A stretch of 64,000 nucleotides of DNA from Thiomicrorhabdus aquaedulcis (GTDB lineage: Bacteria; Pseudomonadota; Gammaproteobacteria; Thiomicrospirales; Thiomicrospiraceae), in contig NZ_AP018722.1 of NCBI RefSeq assembly GCF_004001325.1, positions 2,294,001 through 2,358,000 of the forward strand, written 5' to 3'. A program made the translations under genes and the position numbers. The notes below the pieces were generated by a model. The model was not told the DNA's origin, did not search any database, and saw only the letters and a program-made list of their open reading frames with translations. Of the stretch, positions 752 to 61,045 are shown one piece after another (positions within the stretch are counted from its first letter, which is position 1; the number at the start of each line of letters is the position of its first letter).

Positions 752-914
752 ATGTCTAAAATTCTTGTACGACACTTTAATTGCTGCTTTAAGGCTTTTT
801 TGTCGCTTTTCGTTTTGCCGCCCTTTTTATCCTAGTTTGTCTGATGTCTTCACTTACCAGGCCTGGTGGTTTGTGGTATGCTTTTGCGTCTTAATTCTTG
901 TTAGGAAAACCCTT

Positions 915-1378
915 ATGACCTCCTCTTTTAGACCGTCTAAACTCTTTTTGTATGCCATGTTACTGGGGTTAAGCACGCTTTTTTAAGCGGTTGTTTGGGC
1001 ATTACCCAACCTAAAGACAGCGCCATTAAAGAGGCGGTGGGCGAGCACTTTAATGCACAATACAGTGGGTTATTAAGCGCCACTCAGGTTGAAAAAATCA
1101 ACGGTTACAAACAAAACGACACGCATTATGTCGCGCAAATGAACATTATCGCCACCGCCGAACGCTCGCTGGACGACTACGCCAAACACACCTTGCAAGA
1201 CGACACGCTGTCGCCGCTTGAAAAAATGGCCAGCACACTCAGCACTGGCTTGCTTAAAATGACTTTACCCAGTTTTGACGCGGGCGACACGGTTACCTTT
1301 GAGCGCGAATATCTGTTTGTAAAAACCGATAACGGCTGGCAGCTTAAAAAAGAACTTAGCCAAAGCGATGCGCCGTAA
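915..1378 (+). pseudogene. Small lipoprotein, frameshifted in the signal peptide
   Basis: The ATG at 915 begins a signal peptide (MTSSFRPSKLFLYAMLLGL) that stops early at 984-986. One base later, in the next frame, the sequence continues with a lipobox LSGC and about 125 more residues ending ELSQSDAP. Adding one T to the T6 run at 979-984 joins the two parts into a 154-residue lipoprotein with LFLSGC as the processing site. I do not recognise the mature domain. It is soluble-looking and probably periplasmic or outer-membrane anchored. It precedes luxS on the same strand. Whether the missing base is real or a sequencing error cannot be told here; six other genes in the window show the same defect. 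Confidence 0.75.
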
Positions 1379-1454
1379 TCACCGCCCTCAACCAACGCAC
1401 ATCAATACACATATCACACACACAAACAAAATACAAATAAAATAGGAAACTCCC

Positions 1455-1988
1455 ATGCCTTTATTAGACAGTTTTACCGTTGACCACACCATTATGAACG
1501 CCCCTGCCGTGCGCGTGGCCAAAACCATGACCTCGCCATCGGGCGACACCATTACCGTGTTTGATTTGCGTTTTAACAAACCCAACGAAGCGATGATGAG
1601 CGAAAAAGGCATTCACACCCTAGAGCATTTATTTGCCGGCTTTATGCGCAACCATCTAAACGGCGATGGCGTTGAGATTATCGACATCAGCCCAATGGGT
1701 TGTCGTACCGGATTTTACATGAGCTTATTGGGCGCTCCCAGCGAACAACGTGTTGGCCAGGCCTGGTTAGCGTCCATGCACGACGTGTTAAACGTTCAGC
1801 GCATGGAAGACATTCCTGAACTAAACGAATACCAATGCGGCACCTTTGTCATGCACTCGCTCGAAGAAGCCAAAGCCATCGCCCAAGACATTTTAGACCA
1901 CGGCGTAGGCATCAATAAAAACGAAGAGATTGCCTTAAGCGAAGACACGCTTAAAGCGTTAGGAAACGACGTGAGTCATGCTCTATGA
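1455..1988 (+). CDS. luxS: S-ribosylhomocysteine lyase LuxS
   Basis: LuxS cleaves S-ribosylhomocysteine to homocysteine and DPD, the precursor of autoinducer-2. The 177-residue protein carries the zinc-binding HTLEH motif at residues 54-58, the catalytic cysteine C83 in PMGCRTGFY, and the third zinc ligand C128 in QCGT. An AGGAAA ribosome-binding site precedes the ATG. The stop overlaps the ATG of mtnN (ATGA), so the two SAH-recycling enzymes are coupled. A near-match of the dispersed palindrome (GCCAGGCCTGGT, 1756) encodes GQAWL in a surface-type segment. The assignment is secure. Confidence 0.98.
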
Positions 1989-2692
1989 AAATCGCCATTA
2001 TTGGCGCCATGGAAGAAGAAGTGGCCTTACTTCGAGCGCAACTGGCCAATTTAACCACGCACACTCACGCCGGATTTGAATTTTACCAAGGCCAAATTGG
2101 CGCCACCCAAGTGGCGTTATTGCGCTCGGGCATTGGCAAAGTCAACGCCGCCATCAGCACCACTATTTTGCTTGAACGCTATCAACCCGATTACGTGATA
2201 AACACCGGTACCGCCGGCGGATTTCACACCGATTTAAACGTGGGCGACATTGTCATTAGCAGCTCGGTGTGTCATCACGATGTGGACGTCACCCCCTTTG
2301 GCTACGATTTGGGTCAAGTACCCGGCATGCCATCGTGCTTTTTACCCGACGACCGTTTGGTGCAAGCGGCCAAAGACAGCATTGACAGCTTGCAAGAAGT
2401 GGTGCACATGCACGGCTTAATTGCCACCGCCGATCGCTTTATGCACCAACCCGCAGACGTGGCCAACACGCGTAAAAATTTTCCGGAAATGATTGCCTGC
2501 GAAATGGAAGCCGCCGCGGTGGCGCAAGTCTGTTACAGCTTTAACAAACCGTTTGTAATTATTCGCTCGCTGTCGGACATTGCCGGCAAAGAAAATAAAG
2601 TGACATTTGAACAGTATTTAGAGCAAGCCGCCACACATTCGGCCAAAGTAATTTTAGCCATGCTTAGCCAACTGGAAAACACGCAACCCTAG
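1985..2692 (+). CDS. mtnN: 5'-methylthioadenosine/S-adenosylhomocysteine nucleosidase
   Basis: This enzyme (also called Pfs) removes adenine from SAH, MTA and 5'-deoxyadenosine, supplying S-ribosylhomocysteine to LuxS encoded just upstream. The 235-residue sequence begins with the typical [13 protein letters not shown]. It contains the catalytic E12, the substrate-contacting EMEAAA around residues 173-178, and the catalytic aspartate D198 in SLSDIAG. It overlaps luxS by 4 bp. A terminator follows at 2756. The luxS-mtnN pair forms a self-contained SAH detoxification and AI-2 synthesis operon. Confidence 0.97.
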
Positions 2693-2755
2693 GCCAAGCC
2701 TGGCTTAATATTTAAGTTAACCAGGCCTGGTTAAACTGTAAATTGCACCCACAAA

Positions 2756-2776
2756 AAACCGCCTTAACGGCGGTTT
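2756..2776. terminator. Terminator between convergent mtnN and the 2806 lipoprotein gene
   Basis: The hairpin AAACCGCC / GGCGGTTT with a short loop is flanked by A-rich and T-rich sequence. It can serve both converging genes. A perfect palindrome copy lies 25 bp upstream at 2720. Confidence 0.75.
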
Positions 2777-2805
2777 ATTTTTCTTACATCTATTAAAAAG
2801 ATTAC

Positions 2806-4056: not shown

Positions 4057-4268
4057 AAAATTCCCTTTTATTTACTAAATTTAGTTATTAAATCTATTTA
4101 ATTACGCATTTAAAACGTTGGGGAATATTAACCCAACCTACGCATTAATTAAACCAAATTACGTTAAATAGTTAGAAAAGTGAAATCAATCCGTAACCCT
4201 AAAGCATTTACACCGCAAACTGTGCTTTTACCTTATACACAGTAAAAGAGTCTAACAACCTCTAACCA

Positions 4269-5804: not shown

Positions 5805-5959
5805 AATGGTGATCCTCGTCGTAAAACCAAATGTATCGGTGAGCCAATGTGAGCCAATGTGCGTCTTAATGGCCTATAATGTTTAACTATTAAAGGGGCG
5901 TTAGCGCCGCTGCACCGATTGGTTTTTTTAGTTAAATTAACATAAGCAAAGGAGATGCC

Positions 5960-7150
5960 ATGTTGAGCATTGGAACACCACTTTCTAACACGGCTGTACG
6001 TGTTTTACTGTGTGGCGCGGGTGAATTAGGCAAAGAAGTGGCAATTGAACTGCAACGTTTAGGGGTAGAAGTGATTGCCGTTGACCGTTACGCCAACGCA
6101 CCGGCCATGCAAGTCGCGCACCGCAGCCACGTAATTGACATGCTGGATGGCGCAGAGTTAAGACGCATTATTGAGCTTGAAAAACCCCATTACGTAGTAC
6201 CCGAAATTGAAGCCATCGCCACCGACACCCTGGCGCAACTAGAGCAAGAAGGGGTGAATATTATCCCCACTGCGCGTGCCACACAGCTCACTATGAACCG
6301 CGAAGGCATTCGCCGCTTGGCCAGCGAAATGCTTAATATTGCCACCTCACCGTTTGAATTTGCCGACACCTATGAAGATTTTGCCGCTGCCGTGGTGCGC
6401 ATTGGCATGCCGTGTGTGATTAAGCCCATTATGAGCTCGTCGGGCAAAGGCCAAAGCGTGGTTAAAAGCTCCGCCGACATTGACCAGGCCTGGTTGTATG
6501 CCCAAGAAGGTGGACGCGCCGGCAAAGGCCGGGTGATTATTGAAGGTTTTGTAAACTTTGATTACGAAATTACCCTGCTCACCCTTGTGCACAGCCATGG
6601 CCTGAGTTTTTGCGACCCCATTGGCCACTATCAAGAAGACGGCGATTATCGCCAATCGTGGCAACCGCATCCCATGAGTGCGGCGGCGTTAGCCACCGCG
6701 CACGACATCGCCCGCAAAGTCACCCAAGCACTGTGCGGCGACACCGGACGCGGATTATTTGGCGTAGAACTGTTTGTAAAAGGCGATACCGTCTATTTTA
6801 GTGAAGTGTCGCCCCGCCCACACGACACCGGATTGGTGACGTTAATTTCACAAGATTTATCGCAATTTGCCCTGCACGCGCGGGCTATTTTAGGCCTGCC
6901 TATTCCCAGCATTCGGCAACTGGGCGCATCAGCGTCCAGTGTGATCTTGCCCACTGGGCAGTCTAATCACACCGCGTTTTCTAATTTTGACGTGGCACTG
7001 AGCAAACCCGACACCCACTTAAGACTGTTTGGCAAACCCGACATTAACGGCCGTCGTCGCATGGGCGTGGTGCTCACCCGCGCCGACACCATAGAACAAG
7101 CGTTAGCCAAAGCCAAACGCGCCGCTGCCGCGATTACAGTGACGTTTTGA
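5960..7150 (+). CDS. purT: Formate-dependent GAR transformylase PurT
   Basis: PurT performs the third step of purine synthesis, converting GAR to formyl-GAR with formate and ATP. The 396-residue protein is full length for the family. It has the N-terminal [12 protein letters not shown] nucleotide-binding motif, ATP-grasp residues around [13 protein letters not shown], and [22 protein letters not shown] near residue 270-295. An AAAGGAG ribosome-binding site lies 8 bp before the ATG. A perfect copy of the dispersed palindrome at 6483 encodes DQAW inside the ATP-grasp region. The gene stands alone, and downstream lies a REP-like repeat. Confidence 0.97.
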
Positions 7151-7229
7151 GGTTTGAGTTTTGAGGTGTTAAATCTAGATTTAAGATGTCTTAACCATTA
7201 AACCCTCAAAACCACCCATAACAAACTCC

Positions 7230-7305: not shown

Positions 7306-7516
7306 GAACTTATCCAAACGACCAGGCCTGGTCAATGTGGTTTTAACCTCTTGTTTTTATTAAAAACACCTCTGTCAATTTCTTAACACCGCCAACTTGG
7401 CACAGACCCTGCTATACGACCAGCAAAGGAAATTCTTTAGGCGTTTTTTATGTTTTAAAACGCAATCGAATTTCACACTTACACAGGCGATAGCCTTAAA
7501 CCGCAGGGGAACCATC

Positions 7517-7951: not shown

Positions 7952-7994
7952 ACGCGTTTGACCAGGCCTGGTAAGTTAAAACAAAACGCAAAAC

Positions 7995-8078: not shown

Positions 8079-8121
8079 GCAATACCGTATAAAACGATTA
8101 ACCATTGCCCATTGATAATCA

Positions 8122-10708: not shown

Positions 10709-10725
10709 GTGCCTCTACCCAATAT

Positions 10726-11762: not shown

Positions 11763-12854
11763 ATGACTATGAAACACCTTGTTAACCTATTTAACACCAC
11801 CCGTAAATGGTCTTTAGCACTGGGTTTAAGTGCGGTGTCGGGCTTATCGCTTTCACCAGGCCTGGTAGGTTTTATGGCATTGGGATCAATCGGTCTATCA
11901 AGCCAAGTCATGGCGCAAGACGAGGCGTTGGTGATTTACAGCTCACGCAAAGAGCCGCTAATTAAGCCGTTTTTAGACGCGTTCTCGAAAGAAACCGGTA
12001 TTAAAATCACCCTGTACACGGGTAAAGACGGCGCGTTAATTGAGCGCATTAAATCCGAAGGTGCCAGCACGCCGGCTGACATTTTAATGATGGCCGATGC
12101 CGGTAACTTAGGCTACGCCGCCAGCCAAGGGCTGTTTAGCCCAATGCAATCCCCCATTCTTGAAAAGAACATTCCGGCACACTTACGCGACCCGCAAAAC
12201 TTATGGACAGGCTTATCCATTCGTGCGCGCACCTTGGTGTACAGCACCGAGCGCGTTAAGCCCAGTGAGCTGTCCACCTACGAAGAGTTAGCCGACCCTA
12301 AATGGCAAGGCCGTTTGTGCTTACGCTCGGCCAACACGGTGTACAACAAATCGTTGATTGCCTCACAAATCGCTCACAATGGTGAGGCCAAAACCGAACA
12401 AATGGTAAACGGTTGGGTTAAAAACTTAGCCGCCAAACCCTTTGCTAAAGACGCCGAAGTGATGAGCGCCATTTTAGCCAACCGTTGCGATGTAGGCATT
12501 GTAAACACCTACTATTTTGGCCAAGAAATGGCCAAACAACCCGAGGCTAAAATCGCGTTATTTTGGGCGAATCAAGACAGCACCGGCACGCACATTAACG
12601 TCAGTGGTGCTGGCGTTATCAAACACAGCGACCAAAAAGCCAACGCACAAAAACTCATTGAATGGTTAAGCCGCGACCCGGCACAAACCTTGTATTCGGA
12701 AGCCAATTTTGAATACCCCGCCAACCCTAACTTTGCCGTATCGCCACAGATTGCAGCGTGGGGTGAGTTTAAAGCCGACACCCTTAACCTTGGAAAAGTG
12801 GCGCAATTGCAAGAAAACGCGGTGCGCTTAATGCAAAAAGCTGGGCTTCAATAA
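11763..12854 (+). CDS. fbpA: Periplasmic ferric iron-binding protein
   Basis: This 363-residue solute-binding protein belongs to the FbpA/FutA class. The mature part starts near residue 52 after SSQVMA with LVIYSSRKEPL. It contains TGIKITLYTGKDG, ADILMMADAGNL and VNTYYFGQ (tyrosine pair typical of Fe3+ ligands), then GTHINVSGAGV. The signal sequence is unusually long, about 51 residues. Its middle (SPGLVG) is encoded by a perfect copy of the dispersed palindrome at 11855. Two ATG starts (11763 and 11769) are possible. It lies between fbpC and fbpB in one operon. Confidence 0.92.
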   Translation: MTMKHLVNLFNTTRKWSLALGLSAVSGLSLSPGLVGFMALGSIGLSSQVMAQDEALVIYSSRKEPLIKPFLDAFSKETGIKITLYTGKDGALIERIKSEGASTPADILMMADAGNLGYAASQGLFSPMQSPILEKNIPAHLRDPQNLWTGLSIRARTLVYSTERVKPSELSTYEELADPKWQGRLCLRSANTVYNKSLIASQIAHNGEAKTEQMVNGWVKNLAAKPFAKDAEVMSAILANRCDVGIVNTYYFGQEMAKQPEAKIALFWANQDSTGTHINVSGAGVIKHSDQKANAQKLIEWLSRDPAQTLYSEANFEYPANPNFAVSPQIAAWGEFKADTLNLGKVAQLQENAVRLMQKAGLQ

Positions 12855-14756: not shown

Positions 14757-14849
14757 TCTTTTTTAGAGACCTTTGCTAATCGACGTTATAAGCCCTTTCT
14801 CGCTAAAATGCATTTGACCAGGCCTGGTGGGTTGATATTTTAATGTGAC

Positions 14850-18116: not shown

Positions 18117-19643
18117 TTACTCCAAAACGGGGGATGAATAAGGCGCAAAGGGCACCAAGGTATCGGGGGTAGAAACGGGCGCTTGCGACAGCGCCCAGTG
18201 TCCAGCAATGGCTTTAGACAAACTCACCAATTGCGTTAACTCATCCACGTGCACATCAATAAATTGTTGGCGCAAACTTAAGCGCGTGCGCTGTGCCACC
18301 AACACGTCGCTAAAGCCTTGCTCGCCCACTTGGTATTGAATCAACGCCAATTGCTCTTCTTGCTCGGCGGCTTGCAATGCCAGGGTTAACGACCGATACG
18401 TTTGCCGACTGGCGTGCAAACCGCTTAAGGCATCTTGGGTCTCTTTTAACGCATTTAAGAGAATTTTTTGATAATTTAACCAGGCCTGGTGCTCTTGTTC
18501 AGCTTGGCTTTGGCGTTGTGCGTCACGCGCACCGCCGTCAAACAAAACCTGGGTTGCCCCCAACGTGAGCGTGCGGACTAACCCATCCACACTCAACAAC
18601 TCGCTTAAATTAGCGCCACTGCTGGTCAAACTGCCACGCAAACTCAACTTAGGCCATAAATTGGCACGCGCCTCGTCGGTTAAGGCCATCGCCGCCACCA
18701 AACGGTGCTCGGCCGCTTGCACATCAGGACGTTGGCGCAGCAACTCAGCTGGCAAAGGCAACAACACGCTGGCGGGTACATTCGGTAAAAGAGCTTTATC
18801 AGGTAAAAGGACTTCATCGCGCTCATCGCGCACACCGTTTAAACCAGCCGGCAACGCTTGCGGCGCTTGTCCCAATAACACCGCTAACTGGGTTTGAGTT
18901 TGCTTAATGCGCTGTTGCAAGCCCGGTACACTGCTGGCGGTTTGTTGATAACTGCGGGTGGCTTGTTGAACCGGCAACTGGGTGACCAGGCCTGCTTGAT
19001 ATTGCATTTTGGTTAAATTAAGGGTTTCTAACCAACTTTGCAAAGACGATTGTGTGAGCGTTAACTGCTGTTGCAACGCCCGTAATTGCAGATAATTTAA
19101 CACCACCTCGCCACTCAAACTGACCAGCACATTGGCGTAATCGGCTTGGCTTGCCAACACCTGAGCATCGCGCGCGCTCAACGCCATGCGCCCACCGCCA
19201 AATACATCCAACTCCCAACTGGCGTCCAGTCCGGCGTTATAAACGCTTGAACTGGCCTGCTCGGTAGACTGAGCCGTTGCACCGGCTGACGTACCCAGTT
19301 GTGGCCCTAAACCCCCTTGCGTTTGGCTTCGCAACGCCCGCGCCTGACGAATCACCGACGCCGCCGACAACACATCGGGGTTAGCGCGCATGGCCTGCGC
19401 CATCAATTGATTTAACACTGCATCGTTTAACGTTAACCACCAGGCCTGGTCAGGTGCGTAAACAGCACGGTCACTGACCATTAATGGCTCGTTCCACGCA
19501 TTGGGTGCGTCCAGCGCGGGTGGGGTTCTTGGGCTGATGGAACTGCAACCCGATAATGACCAAGAGAACCCCAACGGTAACGACAAGGCGAACGACAATG
19601 CCAACACACTGGGCGGTATAAATATAAAACGTAATCGCTGCAC
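18117..19643 (-). CDS. NodT/OprM-type outer-membrane efflux lipoprotein (TolC-like)
   Basis: This 508-residue protein starts at GTG 19643, chosen because GGAG lies 7 bp upstream; the frame is open to 19739 without a better start. A lipobox LSGC near residue 30 anchors it in the outer membrane. Two repeated efflux domains follow, with PDVLSAASVIRQARA, ASWELDVFGG, LLRQRPDVQAAEHRL and LTLGATQVLFDGGARDAQ. It would form the trimeric exit duct for the downstream MacA/MacB pair. Two perfect palindromes lie inside it and encode DQAW and HQAW. It is divergent from rpoH. Confidence 0.93.
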   Translation of the reverse strand: MQRLRFIFIPPSVLALSFALSLPLGFSWSLSGCSSISPRTPPALDAPNAWNEPLMVSDRAVYAPDQAWWLTLNDAVLNQLMAQAMRANPDVLSAASVIRQARALRSQTQGGLGPQLGTSAGATAQSTEQASSSVYNAGLDASWELDVFGGGRMALSARDAQVLASQADYANVLVSLSGEVVLNYLQLRALQQQLTLTQSSLQSWLETLNLTKMQYQAGLVTQLPVQQATRSYQQTASSVPGLQQRIKQTQTQLAVLLGQAPQALPAGLNGVRDERDEVLLPDKALLPNVPASVLLPLPAELLRQRPDVQAAEHRLVAAMALTDEARANLWPKLSLRGSLTSSGANLSELLSVDGLVRTLTLGATQVLFDGGARDAQRQSQAEQEHQAWLNYQKILLNALKETQDALSGLHASRQTYRSLTLALQAAEQEEQLALIQYQVGEQGFSDVLVAQRTRLSLRQQFIDVHVDELTQLVSLSKAIAGHWALSQAPVSTPDTLVPFAPYSSPVLE

Positions 19644-20786: not shown

Positions 20787-20841
20787 TATCTTGCGTAATA
20801 TCTGGCGTAACACTTGCAACCTTTAACACTGTTTTAACCAG

Positions 20842-20864
20842 GCCTGCTTAACGCAGGCTTTTTT
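20842..20864 (+). terminator. rpoH terminator built on a palindrome relic
   Basis: GCCTGC-TTAAC-GCAGGC is followed by six T. The left arm overlaps ACCAGGCCTGCT (20837), a one-sided variant of the dispersed palindrome. Confidence 0.85.
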
Positions 20865-21756: not shown

Positions 21757-23907
21757 ATGTTAAGTCGAGCAGAACTGGTGGCCCAACCCCTTTTACTTAA
21801 CCAAGGAAATGTTCAGGCCAAGCGCGCCGAAATTAAAGCCTACTTTAACCAAACGCAAGACACCTACGAGGCGCTGTTTACCACACTCGCCTGCGACCAA
21901 GCGTTTTACGAGCGCCCCTGCAGCTTGCGCCATCCGTTAATTTTTTACTTTGGTCACACCGCGACGTTTTTTACCAATAAATTGGTGCTGGCCAAGTTAC
22001 TGCCGCAACGCATCAATCCGCACATCGAATCACTGTGCGCCATTGGTGTAGATGAAATGTCGTGGGACGACCTAAACGACGCCCATTACGACTGGCCAAC
22101 GGTTGCGCAAGTTCGGACCTACCGCGCGCAAGTGCGAGAGGCCATCAACACCCTAATCGACCAGGTTGAGTTTAGCCTACCCATTGACTGGCAAAGCCCC
22201 ATGTGGCCGATTATGATGGGCATTGAGCACGAGCGCATTCACCTAGAAACCTCGTCGGTACTCATTCGCCAACTGCCTATTCACTTAGTTGTGCCCAGCG
22301 CGCTGTTTCCGGTGTGTCCGCACCACGGTCACGCGCCCGAAAACATTTTATTTGACGTTCCACCAGGCCTGGTCAACATTGATCATACCGATCCGGTCGA
22401 AACTTATGGCTGGGACAACGAATACGGCCAACATCAAGCCCACATAGACGCCTTTAAAGCGGCGGCGTTTTTGGTGTCTAACCAAGAATATTTAGACTTT
22501 GTGGACGCAGACGGTTACCACAACCCACAATATTGGGACGATGAAGGCAACCGTTGGCGCGAATTTAGCCCAGTAAAACACCCCACTTTTTGGCTTAAAA
22601 AAGCCGACCAATGGCATTTGCGCTGCATGACCGACGAAATTGCCATGCCCTGGAACTGGCCAGTGGAAGTCAACGCGCTGGAAGCCGCCGCGTTTTGCCG
22701 TTGGAAAAGCCAACAAACCGGCCGGCCGTTGCGCCTGCCCAGCGAAGACGAATATTTACGTCTGCGCGACCACACCCAAGCTCAAACACACGTGCATCTT
22801 GCCAATGTTAATTTGCAGCACTTCGCCTCGTCGGTTGCGGTTAACACTGTTAAAACCGGCGACTTTTTTGACGTGATTGGCAACGTCTGGCAATGGACAC
22901 AAACGCCTATTTATCCGTTTACCGGCTTTAAAGTTCACCCACTGTACGACGACTTTACCACCCCCACGTTTGACAACAAACACAACCTGTTTAAAGGCGG
23001 CAGCTGGATATCGACCGGCAATGAAATCAACGGCCATTCGCGTTACGCGTTTAGACGGCACTTTTTTCAGCACGCCGGGTTTAGGTACATTGAATCCAAC
23101 CACGCGGTGCAAACTCAATTTATTACCTACGAAACCGACCCCATCATTACCCAGCCCTGCGAATTTAACTATGGCGACGCCGTGCCCAACTTATCCAGCT
23201 TGCCCAACCTGGCACAAGCCTGCGCGCAACACGCCATTAACGCCCTACAAACCGACGCGGCCATGGCACAACGCCAAGCGCAAGGTCAGTTAAACGTGTT
23301 AGATGTGGGGTGTTCGGTCGGACGCAGCAGCTTTGAACTGGCGCGTTACGCCAACCAAGTTACAGGTTTGGATTTTTCGGCACGCTTTATAAAAGTCGCC
23401 AATCAGCTAAAAGAGCGTGGCTCAATTTTATATACCCTGCCGCTGGAAGGCGACATTATGGACTTTAAAGAGCGCACGCTTGACGCGCTTGGATTAAGCG
23501 ATGTGGCGCAAAAATGCACCTTTTTGCAACAAGACGCCGCCAACTTAAAACCCATTTTTAGCGGTTACGATCTAATTATGGCCGTCAATCTACTCGAAAA
23601 ACTCTACCAACCGCGCGCCTTTTTAGCCACACAGGACTCACGCCTAAACCCAGGTGGATTATTAGTACTCAGCTCGACCTATCAATGGGATACCAACATT
23701 ACCGCCAAAACCGAGTGGCTAGGCGGCTACAAAGACACCCAAAGCGGCGAAAACGTCACCAGCTTAGAAGGCTTACAAGCGGCATTAAAAGATCAATTTG
23801 AATTAATTCACACCCACGAACAAGCCTTTGCCGAATACCAAAACTTGCGCCACGCACATTGCAAAACAGCTCAAATAACCGTGTGGAAAAAGCGAAGTGT
23901 GTCGTAA
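21757..23907 (+). CDS. ovoA: OvoA, 5-histidylcysteine sulfoxide synthase / methyltransferase
   Basis: OvoA joins cysteine to histidine C5 with a non-haem iron centre and then N-methylates the product, making the thiol antioxidant ovothiol A. The 716-residue protein starts at ATG 21757 behind CCGGAG. Residues 30-190 form the DinB-like domain with the iron-binding HxxxHxE at 158-164. Residues about 230-470 form the sulfatase-modifying (FGE-type) domain, with GNVWQWTQTP, FKGGSWIST and RRHFFQHAGFRY. Residues about 505-716 are an SAM methyltransferase with LDVGCSVGRSS. A perfect palindrome at 22362 encodes PPGLV between domains. All three domains appear intact. Confidence 0.95.
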   Translation: MLSRAELVAQPLLLNQGNVQAKRAEIKAYFNQTQDTYEALFTTLACDQAFYERPCSLRHPLIFYFGHTATFFTNKLVLAKLLPQRINPHIESLCAIGVDEMSWDDLNDAHYDWPTVAQVRTYRAQVREAINTLIDQVEFSLPIDWQSPMWPIMMGIEHERIHLETSSVLIRQLPIHLVVPSALFPVCPHHGHAPENILFDVPPGLVNIDHTDPVETYGWDNEYGQHQAHIDAFKAAAFLVSNQEYLDFVDADGYHNPQYWDDEGNRWREFSPVKHPTFWLKKADQWHLRCMTDEIAMPWNWPVEVNALEAAAFCRWKSQQTGRPLRLPSEDEYLRLRDHTQAQTHVHLANVNLQHFASSVAVNTVKTGDFFDVIGNVWQWTQTPIYPFTGFKVHPLYDDFTTPTFDNKHNLFKGGSWISTGNEINGHSRYAFRRHFFQHAGFRYIESNHAVQTQFITYETDPIITQPCEFNYGDAVPNLSSLPNLAQACAQHAINALQTDAAMAQRQAQGQLNVLDVGCSVGRSSFELARYANQVTGLDFSARFIKVANQLKERGSILYTLPLEGDIMDFKERTLDALGLSDVAQKCTFLQQDAANLKPIFSGYDLIMAVNLLEKLYQPRAFLATQDSRLNPGGLLVLSSTYQWDTNITAKTEWLGGYKDTQSGENVTSLEGLQAALKDQFELIHTHEQAFAEYQNLRHAHCKTAQITVWKKRSVS

Positions 23908-26381: not shown

Positions 26382-27740
26382 TTAATTTAAATGTTCTAAA
26401 ACCCCTTGGGCGGCCACTTGGGCGCTGGCTAGGACGGCGGTGAGCAGGTAGCCGCCAGTGGGGACTTCCCAGTCGAGCATTTCGCCGGTGCAAAATACTC
26501 CTGGGCAGTGCTTGAGCATTAGGTGCTCAGTCAGCTCGCTTAACAGTACGCCGCCGGCGGTGCTAATGGCTTCATCCATGGGGCGGGGGCTTAAAATGGG
26601 CAATGGCAAGGCTTTTAGGGTGCGTGCCACGGTGGGCATGTCGTTGAGTTGGTGCGAAGTTAACACTTCGCGTAATAGACCGATTTGCACTGGATTTAAA
26701 CCAGCGCGTTTTAAAAACGAACTTAGACTCTGTTTGCCGCGCGGTTTTAACAGTTGCGCCTGCAACTGCGCGGGCGATTTGTCGGGCATAAGATCTAACC
26801 ACAACGGCAACGAGGCATTGACTAGGCCTGGTTGACTTGAGCTTGAACTTGAGTTTGAATTTAAATTTGAGTCTTGATGTTTATTCAACGCCAAAAGACT
26901 TTCGCGCAACGGAGCCGACAGCGCGTAAATGGCGCTGCCTTCTAAACCGTGTTGCGTAATCATCGCCTCGCCGAGTTTGTGCCACGCTTTTCCCGCATGA
27001 TCGGTAAAGCTTAGGGCGACATTTTTAATGGGTTGACCGGCAAATTTTTGGGCAAACACGCTGCTCCAACCCACATTAAAACCGCCATTGCTGGGCTTAA
27101 ACGGTGCCAAGGCTACGCCGCGCTGGCTTAACAACTCGGCCCACAACCCGTTAGAACCCAAACGCGCCCAACTGGCGCCGCCCAACGCCAAAACGGTGGC
27201 GTTGGGGGTAAGCGATACGTCGCGCGCCGGGGTGTGGTGTTGGTCTAAAAAGCGCAATTCGCCTTGCGCGCTCCAGCCCTGCCAACGATGGCGCATGGCA
27301 AATTGCACCCCCAATCCGCGCAACCGCGTGAGCCATGCGCGCAATAAGGGCGCGGCTTGCATGCTGGTGGGATAGACGCGCCCCGAACTGCCAATAAAGG
27401 TTTCAATGCCCAACTCACTCGCCCATTGGCGTAAACCGTTGGCGTCTAAGGTGTGCAACCACGTATTGACCACATCGCTTTGGTCGCCGTAACGGCTGAC
27501 AAACTGGTCGTACGCCTCACTGTGAGTTAAATTTAACCCCCCGCGCCCCGCTTGCAATAATTTGCGCCCCGCCGAGGGCATGGCGTCAAACACCGTAACC
27601 AATACACCTTGTTTGGCCAGGCATTCGGCGGCCATTAAACCGGCCGGGCCTGCGCCTATAATGGCCACGGTTGGGGTAAGAGCTTCACCATCATGTTGCT
27701 GTTCACGCGCGTTAATCAACTTTAACACCTTTAGACACAT
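26382..27740 (-). CDS. BaiN/HI0933-type flavoprotein (TIGR03862-like)
   Basis: This 452-residue FAD protein begins its Rossmann fold near residue 25 with VAIIGAGPAGLMAAE. It continues with GRKLLQAGRGGLNLTHSE, GSSGRVYPTS and VLALGGASWARLGSNG, and ends with the second FAD-contact region FCTGEMLDWEVPTGGYLL. These are signatures of the HI0933/BaiN family of putative NAD(P)-linked oxidoreductases. Substrate is unknown. The ATG at 27740 has a weak ribosome-binding site, so the exact start is uncertain. A palindrome variant (26821) lies in a serine/asparagine-rich insertion near residue 300. Confidence 0.88.
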   Translation of the reverse strand: MCLKVLKLINAREQQHDGEALTPTVAIIGAGPAGLMAAECLAKQGVLVTVFDAMPSAGRKLLQAGRGGLNLTHSEAYDQFVSRYGDQSDVVNTWLHTLDANGLRQWASELGIETFIGSSGRVYPTSMQAAPLLRAWLTRLRGLGVQFAMRHRWQGWSAQGELRFLDQHHTPARDVSLTPNATVLALGGASWARLGSNGLWAELLSQRGVALAPFKPSNGGFNVGWSSVFAQKFAGQPIKNVALSFTDHAGKAWHKLGEAMITQHGLEGSAIYALSAPLRESLLALNKHQDSNLNSNSSSSSSQPGLVNASLPLWLDLMPDKSPAQLQAQLLKPRGKQSLSSFLKRAGLNPVQIGLLREVLTSHQLNDMPTVARTLKALPLPILSPRPMDEAISTAGGVLLSELTEHLMLKHCPGVFCTGEMLDWEVPTGGYLLTAVLASAQVAAQGVLEHLN

Positions 27741-27993
27741 CTATTAATCGGCTTGTTTAAGGCGCAAATTTTAAGCTAAAAACACGCAATATAGATTTTA
27801 AATCGGTTTATTCAAACAATTTAACCAGGCCTGGTCAAATCGCTAAACTGCGTTTTATTTGAGACCTGTGAATAATTGAAAGGAATAAGTGGGAAATAAT
27901 GACCATCTTCTTATTTTTTATAGAAAAAATTGTTAAACCCTATTATTATCGTTTATGCGTAAAATTTAAACATCACGGGTAAACCAGCCATAG

Positions 27994-31414: not shown

Positions 31415-31933
31415 ATGCTTTCCCGATGTTTTTCCGCTGGTTTTAAAACAATTATTTTGCTGCTGTTGGCCGCAAATGCTTGGGCGAGTTCGGTGGATAA
31501 CACCGTGCAAAAACCGGTGATTGGCTGGATAGAAACGGTGGATTTGCCGCACCTTACCCTGCGTCTTAGCGCCAAAATTGACAGCGGCGCCGATCATTCG
31601 TCTTTGCACGCCACCGACATTACTTTGTTTACACAAAATGACCAGGCCTGGGTGCGCTTTACCACACTAAACAACACCGTGCACCAACAGCCGCTGTTGC
31701 GTATGACGCACATTAAAGCTAAACCAAATATTGCAGCCCAACCCGACACCGAACGCCCTGTGATTGCGCTCAGCGTCTGCCTAGGCTCGCAGTTGCAAAC
31801 CGTGCCGGTTAATTTGGTGAATCGTCAGGCGTTTAGCACGCCGATGTTATTGGGTCGGTCGGCGTTGCAAGCGGTGCTGATTGATTCGGCGCGGCAACAC
31901 TTAGCCCCGGCACACTGCCCAGGAGCGCGGTAA
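31415..31933 (+). CDS. Retropepsin-like putative zinc protease (PF05618 family)
   Basis: This 172-residue exported protein has a signal peptide ending NAWAS. The family core reads IGWIETVDLP then LRLSAKIDSGADHSSLHA, where the D-S-G triad corresponds to the retropepsin-like aspartate motif. C-terminal LVNRQAFSTPMLLGRSAL completes the fold. Relatives are annotated as ATP-dependent zinc proteases or RimK-associated proteins, but a proteolytic role is not well established. A palindrome variant (31641) encodes NDQAW. The stop overlaps the earP ATG by one base. Confidence 0.85.
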   Translation: MLSRCFSAGFKTIILLLLAANAWASSVDNTVQKPVIGWIETVDLPHLTLRLSAKIDSGADHSSLHATDITLFTQNDQAWVRFTTLNNTVHQQPLLRMTHIKAKPNIAAQPDTERPVIALSVCLGSQLQTVPVNLVNRQAFSTPMLLGRSALQAVLIDSARQHLAPAHCPGAR

Positions 31934-35204: not shown

Positions 35205-35315
35205 ACTTTTTTGACCAGGCCTGGTGATGAATAATTGGATACAGTAATGTCTAAATCTGGGGATTTTTGGATATAATAGACACCGCTGTAGCCAAAAATA
35301 TTAAAAAGGTGATGT

Positions 35316-38327: not shown

Positions 38328-39581
38328 ATGACAGACATTGACTCATCCAACCACATGGTAAAGCCGGCTTTAAGCAAGTCGGCTGACGTGATTAATCGCC
38401 ACGGCACAGACGCTGAAAAATACACCTTAGCGCACAGCCTATTTGGTACAGAAGATGTATTGCCCATGTGGGTGGCCGATCAAGATTTGTGCACCCCGGC
38501 GTTTGTCATCGACGCGCTTAAAAGCCGTTTAGAGCACCCCATTTTAGGCTACACCTCCGCGTCAGCACAGGTTTACCAAGCCATTATTGATTGGCAAGCG
38601 CGTCACCATTACCACATCACCCAAGCGCACATTGTGTTTACCCATAATGTCGCCAATGGGTTTTACATGGCGGTGCAAGCCTTTACCAGGCCTGGTGATG
38701 CGGTGTTGGTGCAAACACCGGTTTATCCGCCTTTTTTACAAGCACCCATTGTGCATCAACGCCGCTTGGTCAGCGTGCCACTGGTGTTAAGCCATTCGCC
38801 ACAACCACGCTATCACATTGATTTTGAAGAGTTTGAACAAACCATTGTTCAACAAAACGTCAAATTATTTTTATTTTGCCATCCGCAAAATCCATCGGGG
38901 CGAGTGTGGCTTAAAGACGAGCTTGAACGCATTGCCGCCATCTGCTTACGTCACAAAGTGTTAGTGGTGTCAGACGAAATTCATTCCGACCTGCTCTACC
39001 CTGGCCACACCCACATTCCCATGGCCAGCTTGTCACCCGCCATAGCCGCCAATACCGTCACCCTAAACTCGCCGGGCAAAACCTTTAACCTGGGCGGTTT
39101 GCACATAGGTTATGCGCTATTAGCTAACCCGCAACACAAAGCCGCTTACAGCCAAGTGACGCAAGGCAATGCCATTAACAATTTAAATGTCTTTGCGTAC
39201 GTGGCGCTGCAAGCGGCCTACAGCGCGCAAGGTTTCACGTGGAAACAACAACGACTGAGCGAGTTTGCCAACAACATTAACCAAGTCATCGCGTTTTTTG
39301 CCGAACATTTTCCCACTGTTAACGTCATGCGTCCCGAAGCGTCTTTTTTAATTTGGCTGGATTTTAGCGCGCTGTTTAACGAGCAAAGCGCCTTAAAAAA
39401 TTGGCTGGTACAACACGCCAAACTAGGCTTAAACGACGGCCAAACCTTTGGGCACGAATCGGGCCAAGGCTTTATGCGCTTAAACATCGCCGTACCCACC
39501 GCCACCTTAAACGAGGCACTGCAACGCTTACAAAAGGCCAAGCTGGGGCTTACTCTTAGATTTACCGCATCAGAAAATTAA
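38328..39581 (+). CDS. patB: PatB/MalY-type C-S beta-lyase (aminotransferase fold I)
   Basis: The 417-residue PLP enzyme has ADAEKY-like N-terminus, PMWVADQDL near residue 45, HNVANGFYMAVQAF, CHPQNPSGRVW, VVSDEIHSDL and the PLP lysine in NSPGKTFNLGGLHIGY. This is the cystathionine beta-lyase PatB/MalY pattern, which cleaves cystathionine and related thioethers to pyruvate and ammonia. A perfect palindrome at 38685 encodes TRPG in a conserved loop (FTRPGDAVLVQTPVY), showing a copy fully compatible with the family sequence. Confidence 0.92.
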   Translation: MTDIDSSNHMVKPALSKSADVINRHGTDAEKYTLAHSLFGTEDVLPMWVADQDLCTPAFVIDALKSRLEHPILGYTSASAQVYQAIIDWQARHHYHITQAHIVFTHNVANGFYMAVQAFTRPGDAVLVQTPVYPPFLQAPIVHQRRLVSVPLVLSHSPQPRYHIDFEEFEQTIVQQNVKLFLFCHPQNPSGRVWLKDELERIAAICLRHKVLVVSDEIHSDLLYPGHTHIPMASLSPAIAANTVTLNSPGKTFNLGGLHIGYALLANPQHKAAYSQVTQGNAINNLNVFAYVALQAAYSAQGFTWKQQRLSEFANNINQVIAFFAEHFPTVNVMRPEASFLIWLDFSALFNEQSALKNWLVQHAKLGLNDGQTFGHESGQGFMRLNIAVPTATLNEALQRLQKAKLGLTLRFTASEN

Positions 39582-41558: not shown

Positions 41559-41603
41559 CACCAGGCCTGGTCAGTTTAAAATTTAAATTGACCAGGCCAG
41601 GTG
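41559..41603 (+). repeat. Inverted pair of palindromes in the potF-potG gap
   Basis: A perfect copy (41560) and a variant ACCAGGCCAGGT (41591) with their flanks form one large hairpin. CACCAGGCCTGGTCA pairs with TGACCAGGCCAGGTG with a single mismatch, and the arms are joined by an AT stem-loop. Position suggests partial termination or mRNA protection giving more PotF than PotGHI. Confidence 0.8.
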
Positions 41604-44590: not shown

Positions 44591-44708
44591 ACATTCAAAC
44601 GTTAAAGTCCTTTTGACCAGGCCTGGTTATGTTACGTTTTATGCCGTGCTACGACACGGCATCCATCACATGCGTCGTAACAGATTGCGGATCAAGTCCG
44701 CAATGACC
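44582..44708 (+). repeat. Long direct repeat, left copy (flanks fic)
   Basis: The sequence from AAGTCTTAAACATTC through a palindrome copy (44616) and the two REP-like hairpins (44641-44707) is nearly identical to 45992-46123, with about six substitutions and one 5-bp indel. The left copy includes the end of potI. Confidence 0.95.
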
Positions 44709-44776: not shown

Positions 44777-45877
44777 TTAATACGCTTTAAAATCATTGTC
44801 ATTTTGGGTTAACAACGCCATCAGCTTAATGTGAATAAACAGCTTTTCTCTGCCGACTTCCTGCTCTTGCAATACGCCAATTTCGCAAAGCTGTTTTAGA
44901 TAAACTGAAGCGGTTTGGCGCTTGGCAATGTCTTTATCCATTAGATTACTGATTCGACAATAGGGTTGTTCAAATATCACATCAACCAATTCATAGCTGT
45001 ATATTTTAGGCCTCATTTGCTTAATGTAGGTACGCGTATGCTCGGCCAATTGCGTAATGGCTAAAATTTTCTTGGTCGTCCATTGTGATGTTTGCTCAAC
45101 CCCTTTGAGCATATAAATAATCCAATCTTCCCAGGCCTGGTTTCGCGTTACATTTAACAGCAAACTGTAATACTCTGACTTGTTTTGAATAATATACCGA
45201 CTCAAATAAAGTATCGGCAAGCCTAGTAATTGTTCTTGAATTAAATACAAGCTATTGATTACTCGGCCTGTGCGGCCGTTACCATCGGCAAAGGGGTGAA
45301 TCGCTTCAAATTGATAGTGGGCAACCGCCATTTTAATCAGGGGATCCCAATCTTGCTGATTATGAATAAATTGTTCCCAATTACTTAACAACGATCGTAT
45401 AACCGCTTCCCCCTCTGGCGGGGTATAAATGACTTGACCCGTTTTGTCACTCGCTAACGCCGTGCCCGGCACTTTACGAATCGACATCTCGTGCCCTTTT
45501 ATTTGACTGCAAATCGCAATACAAGTATTGGTATTGAGTGGTTTTTCTACCAGCTTTTGAACGCCGGTAAATAACGCAGTTTTATAGCGTAGAGCTTCTT
45601 TTGTGGCCGGATCTGCATCCTGTCCTTGTTGCACATATTGAAAAAGCTTATCCATTGTTGTAACAATATTTTCAATCTCAGACGAAGACTGCGCCTCAAG
45701 CAAAGGCAACGTGTTAATCAAAATCGTCTGATTAGGAATCAGTTTAGCCGATTGGTTCAATTCTGCTAGAGCGGCTCTTGCCAAAATACAAGCCTTTAAA
45801 ATCGCTTTTGTTTCCAGTTCTTTATTGGGGGGCAGTAACGGTATCGCATTGTATGCTTTAATTGGATTCCAATTCAT
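44777..45877 (-). CDS. Class II Fic-domain AMPylation protein
   Basis: The 366-residue protein resembles SoFic of Shewanella. Residues 65-70 hold the inhibitory motif SxxxEN, and the N-terminal domain has ILIN and SSSEIEN. The core Fic motif [12 protein letters not shown] lies at 194-205, complete for adenylylation. A winged-helix-like C-terminal domain follows. Fic enzymes transfer AMP to hydroxyl residues of target proteins; the inhibitory glutamate E69 suggests autoinhibition. No toxin-antitoxin partner gene is adjacent. The gene lies between two long direct repeats, and a palindrome variant (45130) encodes NQAW. Confidence 0.95.
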
Positions 45878-46278
45878 AGCCTAGCCTTGCATTAAATATT
45901 TAAATTTTATCGATTTATCGACATGTTTTGTCTATATGTCGACAGTATAAAGACATCGACAAAAAATATTTATAAAAACGTAAAAACCTACAAGTCTTAA
46001 ACATTCAAACGTTAAAACCCTTTTGACCAGGCCTGGTTATGTTACGTTTTATGTCATGCCGTGCTACGACACGGCATTCATCACATGCGCCGTAACAGAT
46101 TGCGGGTCAAGCCCGCAATGACCTAATTTGGTGTGTGCTAAATTGGTGTGCTAGAGGTACCTAGAGCTGAACCGACCAGGCCTGGTTAAAACTAAAAACC
46201 CATTAATTACAATAACGTGCTTGTTGATAACGGGGTTTGGTTTTAATATAACCTTTTTTTAAAGCCCTTAACCCACTT
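45878..46278. other. Intergenic region upstream of fic and of the response regulator
   Basis: The part next to fic (45905-45970) has repeated TCGACA/TGTCGA motifs, including ATCGACAT...ATGTCGA, a possible operator for fic. The remainder holds the right copy of the direct repeat and two perfect palindromes (46026 and 46175). No reading frame is convincing. Confidence 0.55.
45992..46123 (+). repeat. Long direct repeat, right copy (flanks fic)
   Basis: This matches 44582-44708. It begins with AAGTCTTAA, which in the left copy is the last codons of potI, so the right copy carries a duplicate of a gene end with no gene. The unit spacing is 1410 bp and encloses exactly the fic gene and its promoter. 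Confidence 0.95.
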
Positions 46279-56908: not shown

Positions 56909-57035
56909 TTTTATCAAAGGGCTAAATTAATATTTTAGCCGTTAAAATAAAAAACCCTAATTACCAGGCCAGGTGGGTTGGACGTGGTTTATAAAATACC
57001 TTAGTGTCAAATTATTGGGTGCTACAAACTAAAAA

Positions 57036-58844: not shown

Positions 58845-59046
58845 GCTTGCCTCTTAATTTATGATTAAAGATGACTTGTCATTATGAAAACAAAACATGA
58901 CAACACGGTGAACGGCATGTTAAGAAATAGTGTCATTTTTAAGACAGATTGGCGCGACAACTTTAGAGTAAACAAGGGTTTAAATTTTTCAACTACCAGG
59001 CCTGGTAAATTTAAAGAAATGTTTAAAACAAAGAGAGATTAAACTA

Positions 59047-59254: not shown

Positions 59255-59300
59255 CTGATCACACTGGCTGATCACACTGGCTGATCACACTGGCTGATCA
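59255..59300 (+). repeat. Three and a half tandem copies of a 13-bp unit
   Basis: The unit CTGATCACACTGG starts at 59255, 59268 and 59281, then CTGATCA. The array overlaps the stop codon of the minus-strand gene ending at 59285. Because 13 is not a multiple of three, copy changes could move the stop. Confidence 0.92.
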
Positions 59301-59836
59301 AGCGCGCCCAAACGCGCCAGCGCGTGCTGACCCGTGATGGTGTCGAGTTGGTAGATGTTAAAGTTGGTTTTAAGCGAAAAGTCTTGGGTTCGGGTGGCAT
59401 AGTTGGTCGAAACACTGCCTTGGGGTGAATGCACACGGTGAAACACCTGCGGTGGCCAGCCTAAGATGGCGGCACCGGTAAATATTTTTTGGCCGTTATG
59501 GTAAATGGCGTCGGTGGTAACTTCAAAACGTTCAACCTGGCCGTGTTTTACCGAATACAACTCCACCAAACGCTGGCCTTGATGCACCACTAATTTGTCT
59601 TCTTGGTCGGTGTGCATGTACCAGTACCAGGTGTCGTCGCCGGCGATGAGTGGGCTTTTTCCGCCGGGTTCGTGCAGTACCAAATCGATGCTGGATAAAT
59701 CGTCCACCACGCCGTCTACGCTAAAAAACTGTACCTTGGGCGTCGCTCTAAGCGGCTTTAAAGGCAAAATAAAACATAAGTTTTCAATGTAAACGTTTTT
59801 ACACCCAACCACCAAATCTGTTAGTAACCCCGACAT
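59285..59836 (-). CDS. Conserved cytoplasmic protein of unknown function
   Basis: The 183-residue protein starts at ATG 59836, where GGAG lies 6 bp upstream. The sequence is beta-rich, with WYWYMHTDQEDKLVVHQGQ near residue 70 and VFHRVHSPQGS near 130. That pattern resembles a cupin-like jelly roll (HTD and HRVHS could supply metal ligands), which is inference. No signal peptide. The stop lies within a 13-bp tandem repeat. Neighbours are tRNA-Arg and the mutarotase gene. Confidence 0.7.
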   Translation of the reverse strand: MSGLLTDLVVGCKNVYIENLCFILPLKPLRATPKVQFFSVDGVVDDLSSIDLVLHEPGGKSPLIAGDDTWYWYMHTDQEDKLVVHQGQRLVELYSVKHGQVERFEVTTDAIYHNGQKIFTGAAILGWPPQVFHRVHSPQGSVSTNYATRTQDFSLKTNFNIYQLDTITGQHALARLGALDQPV

Positions 59837-59985
59837 AACCACTCCAATGCATAAGCGTATGATAATATTCTAATCTTTGAGCTTTAAGTTATAACACTTA
59901 ATGTGTGAATGCAATGCTTTTTAAGGATTATGCATCAAACGTGCGACTAATGTTTTTAGGGCTTTGACCAGGCCTGGTTAAACGC

Positions 59986-60011
59986 AAAACCGCCCTAAAA
60001 AGGGCGGTTTT
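59986..60011. terminator. Terminator between the 59285 and 60046 genes
   Basis: AAAACCGCCCT / AGGGCGGTTTT is an 11-bp perfect stem with an AAAA loop; on the minus strand it ends the mutarotase gene. A palindrome copy (59967) abuts it. Confidence 0.85.
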
Positions 60012-60045
60012 GCGTGGGCGTACAAAGGTTTTAAACGTTAAAGTG

Positions 60046-60987
60046 TTAGCGCGCTTGACTCGACAGCATCATGGTAAAAGTGTGTTTTTCATTAGCACCA
60101 ATCACCACGGCATTGTCGGCGATATTACCGGCTTCAACGCACACAAACGCTGGCCATAAATCGTCTGGAATGTCGCCAAAGCCTTTTACGGTTTCTGGAC
60201 CCGGGTTCCAAACCACCGCCGATTGGGCGTTGTTTTTTTCAATGATAATGGCGCGATGGTTGCCCGCGTCTTCAATGACCGTGTCGGCGGTGTGGTTTAA
60301 GTACACCGAATCCATAGGCGGATTAAGCACTAAATCACCCGCTTGACGCTCGGCCGGTGCGTGGCTGAGTTTGTCTAAATGCGTGGCACCGTCTAAACCG
60401 GCAATCACCAAATTACGCGCGTCGGCGACGGCAAAATAGGTGTGAAACGCTTCGGTAATTTCAATGTCGTGGTCGTTTAGGTTGTAGGTGGTAAGCGACA
60501 ACGCAAGTTTTTCACCGACTTCTATTTTAAGTTCGGCATGAAAGTAGTGTGGCCAAAGCGCCAAGGTTTCTTCGCTTGAATCAAAGCCCAACACCACTTC
60601 GGTGGCACCCGAGGGCATGTTGGCGACGTGCTCTAACTGCCATACCGCATTGCGCACAAAACCGTGTGCTGGGGCGGCCGGATTAGTGGCATTAGCCCCA
60701 AACCACGGCCAACAAATAGGCACACCACCGCGCACGGGCTTTTGGCCGTTGTAAATACTGGTGGGGCTCACCCACAACACTTCGGGCTGGTCGCTGGGCT
60801 TAAAATTTAACACCGAACCGCCATGGGTGGTAATTAAAGCGCTCGCCAGACCGTTTTTAACCTCAATCATCATAATATTGTCTTGCATGCGAAACGACAC
60901 CCCTTCGGCGGTGAGCTGTTGCGCGTAGGGTTGAGTGTCTTGGGTATCTTGCTGAGCGTCTTGCTGTGCGGTGCTATTGGGCATCAT
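60046..60987 (-). CDS. D-hexose-6-phosphate mutarotase (YeaD family)
   Basis: The 313-residue protein is an aldose-1-epimerase-fold enzyme with GGVPICWPWFG, PAHGFVRNAVW, ITEAFHTYFAV (catalytic-type histidine) and WNPGPETVKGFGDIPDD at the C-terminus. These are features of glucose-6-phosphate 1-epimerase YeaD. It interconverts the anomers of hexose-6-phosphates. The N-terminal 25 residues are Gln/Asp/Thr-rich and variable. GGAGG precedes the ATG. Confidence 0.92.
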   Translation of the reverse strand: MMPNSTAQQDAQQDTQDTQPYAQQLTAEGVSFRMQDNIMMIEVKNGLASALITTHGGSVLNFKPSDQPEVLWVSPTSIYNGQKPVRGGVPICWPWFGANATNPAAPAHGFVRNAVWQLEHVANMPSGATEVVLGFDSSEETLALWPHYFHAELKIEVGEKLALSLTTYNLNDHDIEITEAFHTYFAVADARNLVIAGLDGATHLDKLSHAPAERQAGDLVLNPPMDSVYLNHTADTVIEDAGNHRAIIIEKNNAQSAVVWNPGPETVKGFGDIPDDLWPAFVCVEAGNIADNAVVIGANEKHTFTMMLSSQAR

Positions 60988-61045
60988 GCCTCCTAAAATA
61001 ATTTATAAGTTAAACACGTTAACCAGGCCTGGTGAAGTGCGATGC

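Follow-up and report, generated by a model that had tools for sequence, protein, structure and literature searches.

A stretch of 64 kb from the chromosome of Thiomicrorhabdus aquaedulcis (positions 2,294,001-2,358,000 of the 2,440,205-base contig C1; hereafter the window) carries the 12-letter palindrome ACCAGGCCTGGT in 21 perfect copies. The question raised by this locus is what keeps one short symmetric word at such a frequency, and what reads it. A sequence-only reading of the window had noted the same 21 copies, placed them far above chance, and likened them to DNA uptake sequences or to HIP1, the highly iterated palindrome (HIP) of cyanobacteria. Herein, the word was counted in the whole genome, in the family Thiomicrospiraceae and in a sample of the class, and its placement, flanks, dialects and possible readers were analyzed. 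On sequence evidence, we lean towards the motif being a DNA uptake signal of this bacterium, a tag of self-DNA.

Abundance, consensus and surroundings of the palindrome

The recount of the window gave 21 perfect copies of ACCAGGCCTGGT, with 0.003-0.017 expected under Markov models of orders 0-4 and 0.68 under order 5; the latter value is high because the motif itself inflates the order-5 model. Another 8 copies have one mismatch and 3 have two, close to the ten or so variants estimated in the sequence-only reading. These 32 matches with at most two mismatches compare with a mean of 1.65 and a largest value of 7 in 100 shuffles of the window. The 2.54-Mb genome holds 718 copies against about 0.6 expected (order-4 Markov model, scaled from a 464-kb sample), a density of 0.28 per kb. 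The control word, which is the pattern of ACCAGGCCTGGT read backwards, has 0 copies genome-wide. The 464-kb sample consists of 20 stretches of 20 kb and the window, and it contains 129 perfect copies versus 0.02-0.11 expected (orders 1-4) or 4.98 (order 5, again inflated by the motif). These counts confirm that the excess in the window and in the genome is real. The sequence-only reading had staked itself on a genome-wide density above the Markov background, and this is what the count gave.

The consensus of the motif is sharp. Just 49 copies with one mismatch were found in the 464-kb sample beside the 129 perfect ones, and the mismatch lies at the outer positions 1 and 2 of the half-site in 40 of them, at position 4 in 4, and at positions 3, 5, and 6 in 5. 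Similarly, perfect copies outnumber one-off copies in 13 of the 17 motif-bearing genomes sampled, equal them in 1 (G018; G numbers denote individual genomes), and fall below them in 3. An anomalously strong consensus is described as typical of uptake sequences, unlike the sites of regulators, in a passage of Redfield et al. 2006 (PMC1626085).

The copies show a preference for the DNA between genes. Of the 129 copies in the 464-kb sample, 66 fall between genes, 61 within genes and 2 on a boundary, with called genes making up 81% of the sequence; the density is 0.76 per kb in intergenic and 0.16 per kb in coding DNA. Within the window, 14 of the 21 perfect copies are intergenic and 7 are coding by our own gene caller, in line with the two thirds given earlier. 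The intergenic density exceeds the coding density in all 17 motif-bearing genome samples, some of which hold just 4-9 copies. The gene caller is a simple dicodon script that under-calls (54-63% coding in the samples of three relatives), so the coding and intergenic densities of the relatives are rough.

AT-rich blocks lie 2-4 and 9-12 bp outside the core on both sides. Around the intergenic copies of the own genome, A and T make up 83% of the bases in the inner block (-4 to -2) and 84% in the outer one (-12 to -9). The positions between the blocks are lower, at 53% (-6/-5) and 60% (-8/-7), and the intergenic background is 61%. T occupies position -2 in 80% of the flanks in the 464-kb sample. 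The flanks had been extended in the sequence-only reading to an 18-mer, TTG-core-CAA, said to be present in many copies. This was overstated, as 0 of the 21 window copies carry the full form, 10 carry one side and 11 neither, and 13 of the 129 copies in the sample carry both sides.

Dialects in the family and the origin of coding copies

Among 62 Thiomicrospiraceae genomes, 27 hold at least 50 copies of ACCAGGCCTGGT (84-718), and 35 hold at most 38, of which 21 hold zero. In the class-wide sample of 369 genomes, none of the 365 Gammaproteobacteria outside the family exceeds 5 copies. These counts indicate that the motif is a trait of the family with a patchy distribution. The best named cysS matches of the window genome reach 78-81% and are mostly Thiomicrorhabdus.

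Dialects were surveyed in 20 relatives, with 60-100 kb of each scanned for K-mers and complemented by flank profiles and counts. ACCAGGCCTGGT is the main word in 7 of the 20 (G009, G015, G021, G030, G061, G062, and G078). G070 has a CCAGGCCTGG core in which the outer base is not fixed, and G035 uses ACCAGGCCTGCT as its dialect word. The remaining 11 relatives, sampled at 100 kb each, have few or no copies of ACCAGGCCTGGT, and 8 of them carry a related motif. The CAGGCCTG core, with the palindromic form AACAGGCCTGTT, was found in G005, G018, and G025, and the dialect ACCGGCCGGT in G023. Asymmetric dialects are AACAGGCCGGGT in G020 and ATCTGCCAGG[C/T]TGGG in G063, G064, and G068. Inverted pairs less than 60 bp apart occur in the samples with asymmetric dialects (G020 2, G063 1, G064 2, G068 0), as in the DNA uptake sequences (DUS) of Neisseriaceae and the uptake signal sequences (USS) of Pasteurellaceae. 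Many dialects have A-tracts outside the core. No such dialect word was found in the 100-kb samples of the other 3 relatives (G003, G019, and G024).

Smaller samples were also counted, and those of named genomes are in line with the survey. AACAGGCCGGGT occurs seven times in 21 kb of T. cannonii, and GCCAGGTTGG three times in 21 kb of Hydrogenovibrio JE_KL2. The samples of other motif-poor genomes (1-40 kb) are too short for a verdict on their dialects; CCACCCCTGGCG was counted five times in the 40 kb of G069, and ACATCAGGCC four times in the 20 kb of G031. None of nine counted words was found in 13-21 kb of T. marina, T. heinhorstiae, or strain 6S3-12, and the sampled stretches of G002 and G004 consist of N letters. 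Two samples contain repeats apart from the dialect motif. In the 100-kb sample of G018 a second group of words is over-represented (CACATGGCCGCTAA and its neighbours, seven copies), and in that of G064 a gene segment is strongly repeated. The repeated gene fills the K-mer list of G064, where the dialect is visible in the flank profiles and counts and not in the K-mer scan.

The coding copies were compared with relatives in protein-guided alignments (identity of 45% or more, covering 60% or more of the query), and a site was scored as gapless when no gap lay within three residues. In this pooled test of 15 coding sites, 31 of 46 alignments passed as gapless, and at 9 of the sites every alignment did. 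An intermediate test with the same 45% and three residues, in which the earP loci were left out, gave 28 gapless alignments of 34, made up of 17 from cysS and 11 of 17 from other genes. All 17 family orthologs of cysS are gapless at the motif site. T. chilensis, ZW0627, and the metagenome-assembled genomes ZodW.150 and WV30 carry the CAGGCCTG core at exactly the same codons. At this place Thiomicrospira ALE5 has a one-off version, and the codons differ in species free of the motif. The gapless alignments and the dialect cores in cysS indicate that most testable coding sites arose by substitution in place, and that the same place can carry the core of the local dialect. The sequence-only reading had also raised the case of a mobile repeat unit confined to the window. 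The copies are spread genome-wide, and the gap tests argue against the insertion of a unit at most testable coding sites.

The proposed uptake signal weighed against other explanations

A DNA uptake signal would produce such a pattern as follows. The tag would be read by a cell-surface receptor of the competence machine. Uptake and recombination would favour fragments with the tag, so that any point mutation giving rise to it would tend to spread, and the genome would fill with it. If the specificity of the receptor drifted, the whole genome would follow, which would give rise to dialects; in some relatives, one half differs and the site has become asymmetric. The receptor may grip both half-sites as a dimer, or it may read either half, since the core is mostly two-fold symmetric with AT blocks on both sides. 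The observations in favour of this reading are the genome-wide excess, the sharp consensus, the AT blocks on the two sides, the intergenic preference, the coding sites that are gapless in relatives at most places, the dialects within one family, the inverted pairs in asymmetric dialects, ComEC in most family genomes, and the scarcity of copies on the second contig and in one region resembling a conjugative element. From these we infer an uptake role, a pilin-like surface protein as the receptor, and dimer binding.

A wider claim can be built on this. Thiomicrospiraceae would be the third family with self-DNA recognition at uptake, evolved independently of Pasteurellaceae and Neisseriaceae. The signal would be mostly two-fold symmetric with a probably dimeric receptor, and its dialects would turn over within one genus in half-sites, spacing and symmetry, with the same codons rewritten. 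We give this wider claim close to, and not quite, an even chance. In the passages of Helsem et al. 2025 (PMC12616744), such uptake specificity is named for two families only. In the open-licence literature, no account of this motif or of uptake signals in Thiomicrospiraceae was found among the papers listed, which agrees with the earlier remark that no description of the motif was known. If the claim is true, comparative tests in such a family, which has named chemolithoautotrophic members and several dialects, could address why uptake becomes specific and how receptor and genome change together. The palindromic case would constrain receptor models, and in Thiomicrospiraceae the motif could be used to mark foreign DNA and compatible donors.

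Several observations weigh against the uptake reading. The density is about a third of the roughly one copy per kb that is usual in USS and DUS, and the known uptake sequences are described as not palindromic in the passages of Bakkali 2007. The outer AT block is weak at coding copies (58-66% AT). One-off copies outnumber perfect ones in G005, G025, and G035, and the two are equal in G018. The bias of the copies to gene ends fits rival explanations as well. Evenness of spacing is weakly supported, with P 0.02-0.21 depending on the test: the coefficient of variation of copy spacing is 0.90 (P 0.18), and the dispersion index in 20-kb stretches is 0.74 (P 0.13), or 0.56 (P 0.02) when the stretch with zero copies is left out, with P 0.21 for 10-kb and P 0.02 for 5-kb stretches. 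No natural transformation study in Thiomicrospiraceae was found in the open-licence literature, where the combination of Hydrogenovibrio and transformation was not searched.

The gap tests contribute to the same side. The motif sites are gappier than random places in the same alignments, with 15 of 46 alignments gapped compared with 91 of 920 (829 of 920 gapless), and the motif sites therefore lie in segments more variable than average. Nine of the 15 gapped alignments come from earP, which is gapless in 3 of 12. The earlier and looser test (at least 35% identity, five residues on each side) gave 9 of 23 gapless alignments, and 5 of 17 for earP. The earP gene is poor material for a gap test: it is present in 18 of the 62 genomes, and its copy lies in a variable segment, with gaps around the aligned place in relatives. 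The pooled gap test lowered our confidence in the uptake signal slightly, from a little further above even to its present level.

The search for competence genes, which the sequence-only reading had proposed, gave a divided answer. ComEC is present in 56 of the 62 family genomes. It does not track the motif, because it was found in the motif-free genomes G003, G019, and G024 also, and a receptor of the ComP type was not found. The ComP_DUS model (PF16732) had no match above the cut-off in the 62 family genomes, nor in any control genome; the PilY1 model had no match anywhere, controls included, and is uninformative. Three matches to the GspH model were rejected as receptor candidates, as they are genes of type II secretion. 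The ComEC distribution, the ComP_DUS result and the loss of the GspH matches also count against uptake. Genes with a prepilin signal pattern were found in 11 of the 11 genomes examined; some are pseudopilins of type II secretion, and several others are prepilins of unusual, large size. The unusually large prepilin-like frames at L258, L259, L267, L268, and L269 have about 260-540 residues and a recurring CPDT or CPDS segment, and some stand in tandem. These large frames are possible receptor candidates, and a receptor from a pilin family other than ComP is possible. The motif is placed here as one that would work like an uptake signal sequence and not as a proven member of that class, because a ComP-kind receptor was not found and uptake preference is a question for the bench.

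A chromosome-organising site, at which a nucleoid or segregation protein binds throughout the chromosome, is unlikely, although it survives best among the rivals. The two-fold symmetric site with AT blocks resembles the binding site of a dimer. Copies are present in 19 of the 20 sampled 20-kb stretches, at 3-8 copies each, and are depleted on the second contig C2 (96,830 bases), with 5 copies versus 28 expected (P 1e-7). However, the copies do not cluster along the chromosome in the sample, and perfect copies outnumber one-off copies, unlike at ordinary binding sites. The lack of any such motif in 3 of the 11 motif-poor relatives would be odd for a housekeeping role, and the sequence of the motif turns over within a genus.

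A HIP-like origin comes next and is unlikely as well. Here the palindrome would arise and persist through a DNA methyltransferase together with methyl-directed mismatch repair, the model put forward for HIP1 and the alternate HIPs of cyanobacteria in part of Elhai 2015 (PMC4390886). The motif is palindromic and highly iterated, its one-off copies are biased to the outer positions 1 and 2 (40 of 49), and the window genome has one C5 methylase in a PF00145 search. Other GC-rich palindromes replace the motif in some relatives, as they replace HIP1 in passages of the same paper. The two methylase families searched do not follow the motif, however. Neither PF00145 nor PF01555 is matched in 11 of the 27 motif-rich genomes (G010, G015, G021, G027, G033, G062, G065, G067, G079, G080, and G082; G010 and G079 are just 83-86% complete), nor in the dialect genomes G018, G020, G023, G025, and G063, while other methylase families were not searched. 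Some HIP1-rich genomes also have no CGATCG methylase in the account of Elhai 2015 (PMC4390886), which softens this point. No methylase-like sub-site common to all dialects was seen, the asymmetric dialects are unfit for a palindrome ratchet, and the wide AT blocks would be left unexplained.

The sequence-only reading had put forward a Dcm-like methylase at CCWGG as a reader. A C5 (Dcm) or N4/N6 methylase in this role was rejected on the genomes above that match neither of the two families searched, and CCWGG is missing from several dialects, ACCGGCCGGT and AACAGGCCTGTT among them. The earlier interpretation was thereby supported in part: the likeness to uptake sequences and HIP1 was kept, and the Dcm/CCWGG reader and the 18-mer flank were not.

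A family of transcription terminators or RNA hairpins, kept for RNA structure, is improbable. Of the 64 copies between two called genes, 16 lie in convergent spacers (1.76 per kb), and 38 and 10 lie in tandem and divergent spacers (0.71 per kb each); in the tandem spacers, 23 of 38 copies are at most 40 bp from the upstream stop codon. This enrichment favours terminators, but 61 of the 129 copies lie within genes, and 1 of the 9 perfect copies in positions 1-20000 of the window passes a terminator rule. The pairing of left and right flanks (n = 127) does not exceed independence at -1 (41 versus 39.4 expected) or -2 (86 versus 83.8), with a modest symmetric excess at -3 (60 versus 47.3) and -4 (51 versus 42.6). 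An RNA hairpin explains the flank pattern less well than double-stranded DNA with one reader on each half-site, and an asymmetric dialect site could not singly form the same perfect hairpin.

The weakest rival, a mobile palindromic element that is copied and inserted (a repetitive extragenic palindrome with its REP-associated tyrosine transposase, REP/RAYT, or one like a miniature inverted-repeat transposable element, MITE), has very little probability left. In its favour are the sharp consensus, the longer common flanks of the window copies 44616 and 46026, and the 15 of 46 coding alignments gapped near the site, more than at random places. Against it, every alignment is gapless at 9 of 15 coding sites (the other 6 have some gapped alignment), cysS is gapless in 17 of 17, and no sharply conserved unit extends past the core.

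Copies of the window, copy-free regions and known systems

The window copies, to which no strand is assigned, were located one by one. Perfect intergenic copies lie at 856..867, at 2720..2731, which is 28 bp past the methylthioadenosine/S-adenosylhomocysteine (MTA/SAH) nucleosidase gene (1985-2692), at 7321..7332, the sole copy in 1-20000 that passes the terminator rule, and at 7961..7972 and 35214..35225, each about 10 bp past a stop codon. The copy at 14817..14828 lies in a convergent spacer and that at 27824..27835 in a divergent one. The others are at 41560..41571, 44616..44627, 46026..46037, 46175..46186, 58995..59006, 59967..59978, and 61022..61033. The 25-bp flanks of the copy at 44616 closely resemble those of the copy at 46026 (44590-44650 and 46001-46060), and the two copies bracket the reverse-strand gene 44777-45877; the segment looks as if it had been duplicated or inserted.

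The perfect coding copies are at 6483..6494 within purT (5960-7150), where family genome G078 has the same 12-mer at the orthologous codons, at 11855..11866 within a solute-binding-protein gene, at 18479..18490 and 19439..19450 within one outer-membrane efflux protein gene, at 22362..22373 within ovoA (21664-23907), at 32480..32491 in the variable segment of earP (31933-33105), and at 38685..38696 within an aminotransferase gene. The aligned place of the earP copy holds 2 perfect and 3 one-off copies in 17 relatives. The closest relatives of EarP (59-65%) are in genus g5 of the family, and within the genus of the window the protein is present in just 4 of 32 genomes, a pattern that suggests horizontal transfer or repeated loss. 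One-mismatch copies lie at 1756..1767 (GCCAGGCCTGGT) within the luxS open reading frame (1455-1988), at 18985..18996 within the same efflux protein gene, at 26821..26832 within a gene for an HI0933-like flavoprotein, at 31641..31652 within a putative zinc protease gene, and at 45130..45141 within the reverse-strand frame 44777-45877. Intergenic ones are at 20837..20848, 41591..41602, and 56963..56974.

Regions free of copies were also seen. The stretch L028 (G000:C1:2240001-2260000) has no copy (P 0.003, uncorrected for 20 stretches). It contains genes for the RuBisCO large subunit, the carboxysome protein CsoS2 and a LysR-type protein among ordinary genes. Some of this stretch may have been acquired by transfer or be under strong constraint. 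The genome G036, a congener of G062 by its label, has an 83-kb copy-free gap at 209-292 kb. A 20-kb piece within it (L068, G036:C1:250001-270000) carries genes for a TrwC relaxase, an integrase core, a Fic protein, an RTX-repeat protein, and an ABC-2 transporter, and the gap is likely a conjugative element. In Neisseriaceae, the distribution of DUS has been used for finding conjugative elements, according to a passage of PMC7371117.

The motif was then set beside known systems. It resembles matS, the FtsK-orienting polar sequences (KOPS) and Chi in being a short repeated chromosomal site. Those sites are clustered or oriented; the present motif is spread along the sampled chromosome and, being mostly palindromic, has no strand. 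The view that it resembles DNA uptake sequences or HIP1 and not matS or KOPS is borne out by its density, its occurrence inside genes, its spread, and the sharpness of its consensus. The HIP1 and alternate HIPs of cyanobacteria are likewise highly iterated palindromes that other palindromes replace in some genomes. They differ in generally having cognate methylases, where 11 of 27 motif-rich genomes here match neither family searched, and the present family has asymmetric dialects.

The DUS of Neisseriaceae, with eight dialects and the receptor ComP, are similar in having several dialects with a partly conserved core in one family and a distribution that marks exogenous DNA. Unlike the present motif, a single DUS is asymmetric and has no flanking motifs. 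In Simonsiella muelleri, two DUS dialects occur 1294 times as overlapping pairs with dyad symmetry, for which a dimer-based recognition was suggested in a passage of Frye et al. 2013 (PMC3630211). One-off copies outnumber perfect ones for the DUS 12-mers in the same source, and therefore the consensus criterion is clear for USS only.

The USS of Pasteurellaceae (AAGTGCGGT and ACAAGCGGT types) share with the motif a sharp core in which perfect copies exceed one-off ones, spaced AT-rich flanks, a placement that favours intergenic DNA but leaves many copies in genes, coding alignments that are mostly gapless, and subclade dialects. The gaps compare at 24% of USS alignments, by a passage of PMC1626085, and 15 of 46 (33%) here. 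The motif is unlike USS in that its core is palindromic in most species sampled, its AT blocks stand on both sides and not one, and its sequence is unrelated. In the passages of Redfield et al. 2006 (PMC1626085), the traits of uptake sequences are a frequency near one copy per kb, spacing of some regularity, a lean towards non-coding DNA despite many copies in genes, an excess of perfect over one-off copies, AT-rich flanks in USS, subclade types, and an origin by substitution. The motif fits this list save for its lower density, weakly regular spacing, and palindromic core, and its anatomy largely agrees with the published profile of an uptake signal.

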